Shown one piece after another: positions 5,624-43,898 of a stretch of DNA of 64,000 bases. A program made the position numbers and the translations under genes. The notes under the pieces are model-generated. The model searched no databases and was not told the DNA's origin. It was given only the letters and a program-made list of their open reading frames with translations. Positions within the stretch are counted from its first letter, which is position 1, and every line of letters starts with the position of its first letter. The stretch comes from Armatimonadota bacterium (lineage in GTDB: Bacteria; Armatimonadota; Fimbriimonadia; Fimbriimonadales; Fimbriimonadaceae): the NCBI GenBank assembly GCA_016125185.1, contig WGMG01000006.1:248001-312000 (forward strand), written 5' to 3'.

Positions 5624-7090
5624 ATGCTGAAAACCGTCGGTCTGACAAAGGCGTATGAAGCCACGGTCGCCCTTGATGCTTTCGATTTCGAGGTTCATGC
5701 CGGAGAGGTAGTCGGCGTTATTGGCGAAAATGGGGCGGGCAAAAGCACGCTGATGAAGCTCCTGTCGGGCATTATCCAGCCCACCGCCGGGCACATTGAA
5801 GTCGACGAAAAACCAGTGCGGATGAAGGACACCACCCACGCTTCTCGCCTGGGAATTCAGATCGTCCATCAGGAGCTAAACCTGATTCCAACCCTCAGCG
5901 CCGAGGATAATCTTTTCCTCGGAGCCGAAAAAGGAAGCGCCCTGGTCGATCGGAACGCAACTCGTCGGGAAGCGGTCAGCTTGCTTGATCGGGTTGGGGC
6001 GAAGTTCGCGCCGACGACCCTTTGCGAAGACCTGTCTATTGCCGAGCAGCAGCTCGTCGAGATCGCCAAAGCCCTGTCAAAGAAAGCGCGCCTTCTCATC
6101 CTCGACGAGCCCACAGCGGTTTTGAGCGATGTCGAATCGCGGATGCTCTTTGACATTGTCGCAAAGCTGCGAGCCGACGGCGTCGCCATCCTCTATGTTT
6201 CCCACCGCCTTCCCGAAATCCTCGAAATCTGCTCGCGGATCGTGGTCCTTCGCGATGGCCAAAAAGTCGCCGATCAGGATCCAACTGGTCTCTCCGAAAG
6301 CGATCTTGCGAACCTGATGGTGGGGCGAAAACTCGAAGACGTCTTTCCGGACAAAGCCCCGATCCAAGACGAGATGGTCCTCGAAGTCGAAAGCTTTTCG
6401 GTGCCCGGTTACGCAAAAGGAGTTTCGTTCTCGGTCAAGGCGGGAGAAATTCTTGGCTTCGCTGGGCTCATCGGATCGGGACGGACGGAAACTTGCGAGG
6501 GAGTTGTCGGAGTTCGAAGCGGACGGGGGAAAGTCTCCGTTCGTGGCAAAACGCTCCCCAGTCTCTCGATAACGGCCACCAAAAAGGCGGGCCTTGTCTA
6601 CGTCTCGGAGGACCGGAAAGGGAAGGGCCTGGTGGTGAGCATGTCTATCGAAGAAAACATGGCCCTCGCCAACCTCAATTCCCTTAACTCGACCAAGAAG
6701 AGGCTTGCGAATGCTGCGAAGTGGATTGGCGACCTAAAAATTAAAGTGCCCGACGCCAGCCTACCCATGACATCGCTCTCCGGGGGGAATCAACAAAAAT
6801 GTTCCGTGGCCAAGTGGCTTGAAACCGATCCAGCCGTCATCATTCTCGACGAACCGACCCGTGGTATCGACGTTGGGTCGAAGGCCGAAATGTACCGGCT
6901 GATTGCCTCGTTGGCCGAATCGGGCCTAGCCTGCATCGTCATCTCTAGCGAGATGCCAGAATTGATCGGCTTGGCTCACCGAGTCGCCGTGTTTCGAGAG
7001 GGAAGAATAGTGGGCGAACTGGTGGGTGAAGATATTAGCGAAGCCAAGATCATGGCATTGGCGGCAGGTGTGGAAGGAGAAGCAGCGTGA
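5624..7090 (+). CDS. Sugar ABC transporter ATP-binding protein (RbsA/MglA type)
   Basis: A 488-residue protein with two fused nucleotide-binding domains, as in the CUT2 family. The first half has Walker A 'GENGAGKSTLMKLLSG', signature 'LSIAEQQLVEIAKAL' and Walker B 'LLILDEPTAVL'. The second half has the degenerate Walker A 'GLIGSGRTE' typical of RbsA/MglA/XylG, signature 'LSGGNQQKCSVAKWL' and 'VIILDEPTRGIDVGSKAE'. It powers import of a monosaccharide through the permease encoded next (4-bp overlap) with the binding protein after that. Ribose, galactose, xylose, rhamnose and autoinducer-2 importers all share this design, so the substrate cannot be read from the sequence. Confidence 0.93.
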   Translation: MLKTVGLTKAYEATVALDAFDFEVHAGEVVGVIGENGAGKSTLMKLLSGIIQPTAGHIEVDEKPVRMKDTTHASRLGIQIVHQELNLIPTLSAEDNLFLGAEKGSALVDRNATRREAVSLLDRVGAKFAPTTLCEDLSIAEQQLVEIAKALSKKARLLILDEPTAVLSDVESRMLFDIVAKLRADGVAILYVSHRLPEILEICSRIVVLRDGQKVADQDPTGLSESDLANLMVGRKLEDVFPDKAPIQDEMVLEVESFSVPGYAKGVSFSVKAGEILGFAGLIGSGRTETCEGVVGVRSGRGKVSVRGKTLPSLSITATKKAGLVYVSEDRKGKGLVVSMSIEENMALANLNSLNSTKKRLANAAKWIGDLKIKVPDASLPMTSLSGGNQQKCSVAKWLETDPAVIILDEPTRGIDVGSKAEMYRLIASLAESGLACIVISSEMPELIGLAHRVAVFREGRIVGELVGEDISEAKIMALAAGVEGEAA

Positions 7091-25706: not shown

Positions 25707-26564
25707 ATGTTTACGATCATTGGAGTCGTCATTGTTCTTGTTGCGGTTATTGTGGGCTACATCATGCACCACGGCAACATTGGCGTGCTCATCCAGATCA
25801 ACGAAATCATCATCCTGGTCGGTGCCGGTTTCGGTTCACTGATGGCTGGCCATGGGATGGCTGGCGTCCAGGGTGCGATCAAGGGCACCCTCGGCATCTT
25901 GAAGCCGGACCCCTATACGAAGCAGGCCTTTACCGACCTGCTGAAGATGATGTACCAACTCTTCAATGTCGCACGAAAAGAGGGGTTGCTCGGCCTCGAA
26001 AAGCACATCGAAGATCCGTCGAAATCCGATATTCTCGGTAAGTACCCGACATTCATCAATAACCATCACGCATCCGACTTCTTCTGTGACACCCTCAAAG
26101 TCATCCTGTCGGGTTCGGTGGGGCCGCATGACCTCAGCGAAATGATGGAGCTCGACCTCGAAGTCGCCCATCACGCTGCGATGCTTCCGTCCCAGGCCAT
26201 CCAGACGACCTCGGACGCTATGCCTGGCTTCGGAATCGTTGCCGCGGTTCTCGGCGTTATCATCACGATGGGCAAGATCGGTGGCGAAGCCGCCGCCATC
26301 GGCGAGTCGGTCGCTGCCGCTCTGGTCGGAACGTTCATGGGAATCTTGATCGCGTACGGCATCCTGTCTCCTCTGTCTAAGGCGATGGAGCTTCGACTGG
26401 CTAGCGAAGGCGCCTATATGAACTGCATCCGCCATGCGCTTTTCAGCTTCGCCCGCGGCGAAGCCCCGATCACCTGTGTCGAATTCGCTCGTCGAAACAT
26501 CGACCCAGCCGTCCGCCCCGGCTTCACCGAAATGGAGAACGCTGTGAAGGAAAAAGCGGCGTGA
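25707..26564 (+). CDS. motA: Flagellar motor stator protein MotA
   Basis: 285 residues with four hydrophobic helices in the MotA arrangement: 'MFTIIGVVIVLVAVIVGYIM', 'IILVGAGFGSLMAG', 'MPGFGIVAAVLGVIITMGKI' (conserved Pro-Gly) and 'GTFMGILIAYGILSPLS'. The cytoplasmic loop keeps the charged stretch 'LFNVARKEGLLGLE', which contacts FliG in known motors. With MotB it forms the ion-driven stator. The motB gene follows, but only after a 471-bp interruption holding an antisense pseudogene, although the two are normally adjacent. Confidence 0.95.
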   Translation: MFTIIGVVIVLVAVIVGYIMHHGNIGVLIQINEIIILVGAGFGSLMAGHGMAGVQGAIKGTLGILKPDPYTKQAFTDLLKMMYQLFNVARKEGLLGLEKHIEDPSKSDILGKYPTFINNHHASDFFCDTLKVILSGSVGPHDLSEMMELDLEVAHHAAMLPSQAIQTTSDAMPGFGIVAAVLGVIITMGKIGGEAAAIGESVAAALVGTFMGILIAYGILSPLSKAMELRLASEGAYMNCIRHALFSFARGEAPITCVEFARRNIDPAVRPGFTEMENAVKEKAA

Positions 26565-26569
26565 TAAAG

Positions 26570-26594
26570 AGCCTCAAGCCTCAAGCCTCTAGCC
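26570..26594 (+). repeat. Left heptanucleotide array / inverted terminal repeat
   Basis: Heptads AGCCTCA, AGCCTCA, AGCCTCT, AGCCTTA begin at 26570, five bases after the motA stop. The 25 bases at 26570-26594 match the reverse complement of 27008-27032 at 21 of 25 positions, by hand alignment. Confidence 0.75.
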
Positions 26595-26608
26595 TTAAGC
26601 GGTTGGAG

Positions 26609-26986
26609 CTAGGTAGCTGGCTTCAGCTTCGAAATGAGGCTGGAGATCATTTTGTTCAATTCCTGCAACCGATCGATGAAAGTCGAAATCTCATCGACAT
26701 AACCGAGGTCGAAGGCAATAATGAGCAGAGTTTCGAGTTCCTGCGCGGAACCAAGGCTAATGAAAAGAAAGCGGCAAAACTCGGAGTCAGAACTTCGACC
26801 GTGCCCCTAAGCAATATTGGTGGGAACGGAAACTGCGGCTCGCTGAATTTGAGAAATAAGGCCGAAGGGCTCCTCGGCAGGAAACGTCTGGCAAAGTCGG
26901 TAAAGATCGACGCACAGAACTTTGCTCTTTTCCCAAATCTGCAGATCTCGAAAGTTCGATTTTCTCGTACTGCGCTTGTCGGATAT
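26609..26986 (-). pseudogene. Decayed four-helix-bundle protein (S23/IVP family)
   Basis: Reading the minus strand from 26986 gives 126 codons that match the family all along: 'NFRDLQIWEKSKVL', 'LYRLCQTFPAEEPFGLISQI', 'QRAAVSVPTNIA', then 'GHGRSSDSEFCRFL', 'SLGSAQELETLLIIAFDLGY' and a last helix. Two lesions are seen. Codon 60 is TAG exactly where the invariant Glu of NIAEG should be (one change from GAG). The first codon is ATA before 'SDKRSTRKSN', where ATG is expected. No frameshift is needed, so decay is recent. Because of the stop it is absent from simple ORF lists. Intact relatives bind structured RNA or are Avd-like; function here is lost or requires readthrough. Confidence 0.85.
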
Positions 26987-27007
26987 TACTCGCAGTTAGG
27001 TGCTTGC

Positions 27008-27032
27008 GGCTTGCGGCTTGCGGCTGGAGGCT
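27008..27032 (-). repeat. Right heptanucleotide array / inverted terminal repeat
   Basis: Three exact GCTTGCG heptads from 27002, then GCTGGAG and GCTG, ending four bases before the motB ATG. The GGAGG inside this array is the only visible ribosome-binding site for motB. Confidence 0.75.
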
Positions 27033-27035
27033 GTC

Positions 27036-27926
27036 ATGGCTAACGACGCAATCATCATCAAGAAGAAAAAAGTCGCCGGGCACGGCGGCCACCACGGCGG
27101 CTCATGGAAAGTCGCTTACGCGGACTTCGTTACGGCAATGATGGCGTTCTTCATGGTCCTTTGGATCATGGGACTCTCGGACGAAACCAAAGCGTCGATC
27201 CAAGGCTACTTTAACGACCCCGCCGGGTTCATGAAGAATCCGCCGGTAAGCCGCGTTGTGATTCCGCGCCCTGGCAAGTCGTTTGCAAGTCCGAAGCAGC
27301 AACGTGCATCGGGCAGCGGTACCGGTCAATACGAGGGAACGAGCCCGACGGAAGAAGAAGAGAGCAAAGCCGTTGCCAACGAGGTGAAGCAGAAGCTTTA
27401 CGGTCTGCCTGACATTGACCACGTGATCATCACCGAGACATCCGAGGGAATCCAAATCGAATTCCTCGAAGACGTCACCAGCGTCTTTTTCGAGTCGGGA
27501 AGCGCCATCATCAGCCCCCTCGGCACCAAGATCATCAAGAAGATCACCCCAATTGTGAAGGACACTGGGCGCTTCATCGTGCTGGAAGGTCACACGGATA
27601 GAAAACCATACGCGGGCAAGGATTACACCAACTGGGAACTGAGCTCGGATCGTGCTAATGCCTTCCGAAAGGCTCTCAACGCTGATGGGATTCCGACCAA
27701 CCGATTTAAGGAAGTTCGCGCATTGGCGGATACGAAGCTGAAGTTCCCCGGCAATCCGTTCGCCGCTGGCAATCGCCGCGTAACGCTTTTGCTTCCATGG
27801 GGCAAGCTCGCTGCCAAGGCCAACGTACACAAACTGCGAAATGAGTCCATCCGAAGTTCGATCGGATTCGGGGGCGACAAGCCGTTCAACATCATGGCTC
27901 CGACCGTGCACGAACCGCATTTATAG
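27036..27926 (+). CDS. motB: Flagellar motor stator protein MotB
   Basis: 296 residues from the ATG at 27036, preceded by GGAGG; the frame is open to 27000, but that part is the repeat array. After a basic cytoplasmic tail comes the single transmembrane helix with the proton-binding Asp in 'WKVAYADFVTAMMAFFMVLW' (about D30). A plug/linker follows, then an OmpA-like peptidoglycan-binding domain: 'FIVLEGHTDRKPYAG', 'WELSSDRANAFRKAL' and 'GNRRVTLLL'. It anchors MotA stators to the cell wall. Flagellar basal-body genes are not in the window. Confidence 0.95.
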   Translation: MANDAIIIKKKKVAGHGGHHGGSWKVAYADFVTAMMAFFMVLWIMGLSDETKASIQGYFNDPAGFMKNPPVSRVVIPRPGKSFASPKQQRASGSGTGQYEGTSPTEEEESKAVANEVKQKLYGLPDIDHVIITETSEGIQIEFLEDVTSVFFESGSAIISPLGTKIIKKITPIVKDTGRFIVLEGHTDRKPYAGKDYTNWELSSDRANAFRKALNADGIPTNRFKEVRALADTKLKFPGNPFAAGNRRVTLLLPWGKLAAKANVHKLRNESIRSSIGFGGDKPFNIMAPTVHEPHL

Positions 27927-43642: not shown

Positions 43643-43664
43643 GGGGAGAGGATACCTTTGGAGG

Positions 43665-43706
43665 GCACAGAGCACAGAGCACAGAGCACAGAGTGCGGAG
43701 TGCTAG
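43665..43706. repeat. Tandem heptamer array GCACAGA
   Basis: Four exact GCACAGA units (43665-43692) followed by two degenerate units (gtgcgga, gtgctag). It starts 23 bp upstream of the fmdB-like start, in the divergent intergenic region. Confidence 0.9.
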
Positions 43707-43715
43707 CCTCCTTTC

Positions 43716-43777
43716 AGTTGGGAGTTGGGAGTTGGGAGTTGGGAGTTGGGAGTTGGGAGTTGGGAGTTGGGAGTTGG
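43716..43777. repeat. Tandem heptamer array AGTTGGG, about 8.9 copies
   Basis: Eight perfect AGTTGGG units from 43716 plus a partial one; another copy and a half recurs at 43812-43822 after a CCCCGAT/ATCGGGG hairpin (43778-43793). Perfect tandem units are prone to slippage. The array lies between the divergent starts at 43642 and 43899. Confidence 0.95.
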
Positions 43778-43898
43778 CCCCGATGAATCGGGGTCTTCGC
43801 TTCGCTACGAGAGTTGGGAGTTTTGACGTATCTTTTATTTGCAAACGTGATATAGTCTTGAAACCAGACGATAAGGGTCAAAGTCGGGCAATTGGGTT

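Follow-up and report, generated by a model that had tools for sequence, protein, structure and literature searches.

An IVP pseudogene between inverted heptad arrays at motA-motB, and the recurrence of the array-gene-array layout across bacterial phyla

The window analysed here, a stretch of 64,000 nucleotides from an Armatimonadota genome, raises the question of what the 463-bp unit is (26570-27032) that separates motA from motB, and whether it is an element of its own. The unit is composed of a left heptad array, a minus-strand frame of the IVP/S23 family and an inverted right array, arranged as follows:

25707..26564, plus strand: motA, left neighbour, stop codon at 26562-26564 (ORF list)
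26570..26600, plus strand: left heptad array, AGCCTCA-type, 4.4 copies, AG reading inward (TRF, inverted-repeat arm, array census)
26609..26995, minus strand: pseudogene frame of the 23S_rRNA_IVP / S23 four-helix-bundle family, 129 codons including the stop, no canonical start (PF05635, 117.4 bits; translation)
26807..26809, minus strand: in-frame TAG (CTA on the plus strand) in the NIAEG motif (translation NIA*GHGR; one TAG inside the PF05635 match)
27002..27032, minus strand: right heptad array, GCTTGCG-type (reverse complement AGCCGCA), inverted with respect to the left array (TRF, arm)
27036..27926, plus strand: motB, right neighbour (ORF list, junction comparison)

Anatomy of the unit between motA and motB

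An earlier note, made by inspection of the window, had described heptad-built inverted ends of 25 bp matching at 21 of 25 positions. TRF detects arrays at both ends, and the arms are in fact 31 nt long, with 81% complementarity and a spacer of 401 nt. The spacing given in that note was also exact: 5 bp lie between the motA stop and the left array, and 3 bp between the right array and the motB ATG at 27036. The terminal inverted repeats are able to pair as a stem, the arms being the closing stem in the predicted RNA fold of the unit (z −3.1). When the left flank is aligned to the reverse complement of the right flank, which is the arm score used throughout with a threshold of 16, the unit scores 19; among the controls, a score of 18 is reached by 0.4% of mock genes in other loci and by 1-2% of swapped flank pairs.

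The minus-strand frame had been taken for an S23/IVP-type gene of 126 codons. The family assignment holds, with a PF05635 match at 26642-26950 (117 bits) that makes it a member of the IVP/S23 four-helix-bundle family, but the frame is not intact. No ATG, GTG or TTG occurs in the translation between the upstream TAA and the IVP domain, and the NIAEG motif is interrupted by the TAG. Hence, the IVP gene of this copy is a pseudogene. The unit contains the IVP frame alone and no transposase. At the outer end of the right array a GGAG (window 27026-27035) lies at Shine-Dalgarno distance from motB and may serve as its ribosome-binding site; GGAGG or AGAGG is similarly placed before motB in two related genomes (G002 and G009).

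Copies in the same genome and in other phyla

The 4.5-Mb genome to which the window belongs (G000) holds 11 PF05635 matches, 10 of which are standalone genes; TIGR02436 also matches a sister IVP copy. Inverted short-repeat arms were present at 10/10 of the standalone copies, built of heptads in eight, of a period of 9 in L010 and of longer composite repeats in L007. The arm score is at least 16 in nine of the ten, and the tenth, L001, has by eye AGCTTCT-type arrays on both sides. The repeats vary from copy to copy (AGAGAAC, AGTTGGC, AGGATTC, AGCCTTT, AGCACAG and others) while the two arms of one copy match; in L006 an identical irregular unit (AGCCAAGAAG) is present in both arms. Arm sequence is thus copy-specific, and the copies do not have in common the one terminal inverted repeat sequence by which an insertion sequence or MITE is recognised. 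L001 (G000:C1:722206-722517) carries a nonsense codon at position 3 (ATG AGA TAG), so that damage affects at least two of the ten standalone copies, the motA-motB pseudogene included.

The eleventh match (L011, 1486-2268; G000:C6) is a protein of 260 aa with an Arg/Gly-rich tail, encoded without arrays at the groES-groEL junction. Array-less IVPs with a long Arg/Gly/Asp-rich tail were also found in L028, L029, L081, L082 and L086. Part of the genus has such a gene at groES-groEL, and other species have there an array-bounded IVP element or nothing. The array-less protein has the appearance of a domesticated copy, and may be an RNA-binding protein of the chaperonin operon.

Recurrence was examined in a wide set of 80 loci from many phyla, 79 of them usable for arm scoring. 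The score was at least 16 in 76% of the 79 loci, versus 3.6% for mock genes placed in the same loci and 3.8% for swapped arms. Tandem periodicity was present on both sides in 93/130 loci, compared with 5/423 control windows; the period was 7 in 72 of the 93 and 8 in 15, the rest having 6, 9, 10 or 11. On the inward-reading strand the period-7 unit reads A(82%) G(94%) n n n n Y; the other positions are nearly free, and the total information is 4.06 bits, shuffled units giving 3.04 (maximum 3.23). In the 101 elements whose arms are clear, the arm has a median length of 35 nt and 83% identity, and the element spans 478 bp. Both orientations and non-operon sites occur; 65 of the 94 classified positions are between co-directional genes. 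The IVP copies read on cyanobacterial plasmids are likewise bounded by inverted arrays, one of them being placed between two ribonucleotide reductase subunits, and no IVP match was obtained in phage records. None of the 80 wide loci lies in a 23S gene as searched by short conserved words. The earlier note had asked whether other members of the family are flanked in this way. They are, at all ten standalone copies of the genome and at most copies of other phyla, and the array-gene-array layout is confirmed as a real and general observation.

Two simple accounts of the heptad sequence were discarded. As arrays of stop codons in three frames (YAG every 7 nt) the heptads make little sense, since CAG is as common as TAG there in the logo. 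Nor does heptad sequence strictly follow the protein lineage; the relationship is weak overall (Mantel rho 0.11) and stronger for close proteins.

Occupied, empty and replaced sites

Orthologues of motA were found in 30 of the 41 genomes searched. The motA-motB junction is filled in G000, G002 and G018 and empty in G001 and G015 (a 2-bp spacer and an overlapping TAATG), as it is in more distant relatives; in G009 it holds an inverted array pair without the gene (L041). An independent insertion was considered for G018, but monophyly of its IVP with the G000 and G002 copies was not rejected (p-AU 0.27). The groES-groEL junction is empty in 15 genomes and has an IVP gene in 13, and at both junctions the empty sites are devoid of any array. 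The clearest evidence comes from the sister species G013 and G014, where the DNA flanking the groES-groEL module is 95% identical on both sides and the 464 bp from groES to the groEL leader are unrelated in BLASTN, with different 10-bp arrays and IVPs that are 46% identical. Since sisters with such flanks carry entirely different modules, array-gene-array is gained or replaced as one unit, with the arrays as its edges.

Other sites add to this picture. At a fabI-like site, G000 and G002 hold sister IVPs that share AGCTTCT arms and lie in opposite orientation; in G009 the site has only a solo array built of another repeat, and in G001 it is empty. The thrS site is filled in G000 and G009 and not in G002 and G001. 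Related IVPs with the same 10-bp repeat occupy different sites in different genera (L018 and L020). No target-site duplication was recognised at the compared sites, where the filled/empty pairs are too distant for the exact target to be read. Recent, near-identical copies of the IVP element were not seen, so that any present mobility is putative.

Arrays are also found away from the gene. A census of 864 kb of the 4.5-Mb genome gave 30 period-7 arrays (at least 17/21 matches) versus 0 in shuffles, and most of them are not beside an IVP gene, being solo or mosaic (many of them mosaic) with the AG phase kept. A gene-less inverted array pair is present at C1:132829-133038. Two of the 30 arrays, adjacent and in the same orientation (AGAGCAC-type, 4 copies, and AGTTGGG, 8.9 copies), lie in the window at 43659-43781 with no IVP gene nearby. 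A gene for a 729-aa S9-type peptidase (G000:C6:512209-514637) is bounded by matching inverted heptad arrays within an outer inverted array pair. Over 41 genomes the density of AG-heptads follows the number of standalone IVP genes (Spearman 0.55, p 2e-4, phylogeny being ignored); the correlation is 0.61 within the genus, and an octad control gives 0.08 over the 41 genomes. G038 is an exception, with 62 heptad hits and no IVP. The genome G007 (many places on C1, e.g. 6363-6460 and 4311380-4311501) is rich in octad arrays (AGGCGTTG / AGGCGTTA) and not in heptads, suggesting that the repeat period shifts between lineages.

To the earlier note the unit looked like a transposase-free mobile unit, perhaps of a class not yet described, with the inverted heptads as its ends, and it had named beforehand two outcomes that would speak against this: no empty sites in relatives, and other family copies without flanking arrays. 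What was found was empty junctions in G001, G015 and others, and arrays at other copies. Its interpretation is partly supported. The array-gene-array module does behave as a unit bounded by its arrays; the copy between motA and motB is dead, and arrays occur without the gene as well. The class is not wholly undescribed either, because IVP-coding 23S rRNA intervening sequences share its anatomy (PMC4990558).

A proposed element, its alternatives and its relatives

We propose that the motA-motB unit is, more likely than not, what is left of a small selfish element, about 430-570 bp in size, in which an IVP gene is combined with tandem-array terminal inverted repeats. The terminal inverted repeats are themselves short tandem arrays of the unit AGnnnnY, usually of 7 bp, and in the model these arrays would be the functional ends. 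Both arrays would pair as a hairpin in RNA or in single-stranded DNA, and a pentameric IVP protein would bind the hairpin or the arrays. The element would be spread between sites and species by host or trans-acting machinery. Life inside operons would be tolerated as it is for 23S rRNA intervening sequences, through formation of a closing stem, which RNase III could cut out of the transcript. Solo arrays, and array pairs that lack the gene, would be non-autonomous remnants or derivatives. We know of no catalytic activity of IVP proteins. The protein 2GSC (Xcc0516), which matches the IVP profile of this analysis at 1e-38, is a toroidal homopentamer (PMC4990558).

The abundance of arrays without the gene allows a different order of events, in which the heptad arrays are primary, as dispersed tandem repeats that slippage and template switching amplify and homogenise, and the IVP genes are passengers captured between two arrays, or the array pairs are safe landing sites for many genes. 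The solo and mosaic majority of the 30 arrays in 864 kb, the gene-less inverted pairs (L041 at motA-motB and C1:132829-133038), the S9 peptidase gene between matching inverted arrays and the solo array of another repeat at the G009 fabI-like site would all be expected from it. Taking into account that: (i) the association with IVP holds across phyla and mock genes in the same loci are without it; (ii) no array is present where the motA-motB or groES-groEL junction is empty, and (iii) a copy-specific sequence is common to both arms of a copy, we give this order of events an appreciable but clearly minor share of the probability. The arms could instead be an RNA-level device, a double-stranded stem whose cutting by RNase III decouples the flanking genes of the operon, retained because it serves regulation in the host and not as a selfish element. 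The predicted closing stem, the frequent co-directional context and the excision of the Coxiella intervening sequence by RNase III agree with such a role. However, no bias towards G-U wobble was seen among the mismatches of the arms (151 vs 169, p 0.34), so that selection for an RNA stem finds no support in that test and arm matching may come instead from DNA-level copying; the patchiness, swapping and decay of the gene seen when orthologous sites are compared, as well as the existence of both orientations and of non-operon sites, also argue against regulation by the host, which we consider unlikely.

A Y1 (RAYT-type) transposase resident in the genome could also mobilise the element in trans, using the arrays as atypical REP-like ends; the layout does parallel that of REP-RAYT units. 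The same genomes have many Y1 genes (13 in G000, 26 in G009), whose density is correlated with that of IVP (rho 0.44, p 0.004) but not significantly with that of heptads (rho 0.25, p 0.11); G017 is rich in heptads and has one Y1 gene. In G000, G002 and G009 (L282-L321; 13 to 26 genes per genome) most of the Y1 genes examined lie between inverted REP-like palindromes of their own and not between matching heptad arrays. These palindromes are a repeat system separate from the heptads, and this route was set aside as very improbable. Mobilisation by a reverse transcriptase is not favoured, since no RVT_1 match was obtained in the own genome, G009 or G023. Finally, heptanucleotide repeats are common in bacteria generally, as far as the consulted portions of two reports go (PMC4679880, PMC4692102), and one could see in the unit chance or ordinary microsatellite noise beside an ordinary small gene; all matched controls refute this, leaving it next to no credit.

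A selfish element thus being the preferred reading, its distribution looks like that of a widespread, largely undescribed selfish DNA element across many bacterial phyla. A broader formulation, which we advance tentatively and at somewhat less than even chance, would make it a pan-bacterial transposase-free class whose ends are defined by a period and a conserved AG, whose arms are rewritten yet stay matched, which is maintained or spread by the IVP pentamer, and which is the source of many heptanucleotide repeats, with rRNA intervening sequences as a special case. The orphan IVP/S23 family would gain a consistent genomic context, and two old puzzles would be joined, namely where IVP-coding rRNA intervening sequences come from and why heptanucleotide repeats, the Xanthomonas inverted pairs among them, are so abundant. 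It also poses a question of mechanism, since ends that vary in sequence would have to remain matched, and to move, with no transposase. IVP genes reported within cas loci (for example cmr3-IVP-cmr2 in Pleurocapsa) were assigned CRISPR-associated functions (PMC3936711); they may be inserted elements and not functional partners. No link between IVP genes and bacterial heptanucleotide repeats was found in the open-access literature searched, and the novelty of that link is provisional.

Several known systems share parts of this anatomy. In REP-RAYT units (REPtrons), one gene lies between inverted repeats that are also dispersed alone through the genome, as here; that gene is a Y1/HUH transposase and the repeat a conserved palindrome, whereas the present unit has an IVP gene, no transposase, and tandem arrays that differ between copies. 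Avd of the diversity-generating retroelements belongs to a homologous four-helix-bundle family (PMC10053308), but reverse transcriptase, template and variable repeat are all absent here. Heptanucleotide repeats have been described as G-rich inverted pairs in Xanthomonas and Nostoc (GGGAATC), as cyanobacterial STRRs and as TAACTGA in Beggiatoaceae. Like the present ends they are 7-bp tandem arrays, in Xanthomonas often convergent inverted pairs near stop codons; in the portions of those reports consulted, they are not tied to IVP genes or to a bounded element (PMC4692102, PMC4679880).

The IVP-coding 23S rRNA intervening sequences of Leptospira and Coxiella have the same protein family, a similar size, a terminal inverted-repeat stem and tandem heptamers, and share with the elements described here a decaying ORF and a sporadic distribution (PMC4990558). 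That of Coxiella, the one published case that links array-ended elements to rRNA, measures 428 nt; it has a terminal stem of 28 bp and an S23 ORF, its tandem heptamers (GACAGAT) lie at one of the ends, and it is cleaved by RNase III (PMC4990558). Intervening sequences sit in the rRNA gene, whereas the motA-motB unit does not and its relatives lie between protein genes, in either orientation and up to ten per genome, with arms that are copy-specific tandem arrays sharing the AG. The IVP-coding intervening sequences are nevertheless the closest relatives of these elements, and we read both as one family of small selfish hairpin-ended elements.
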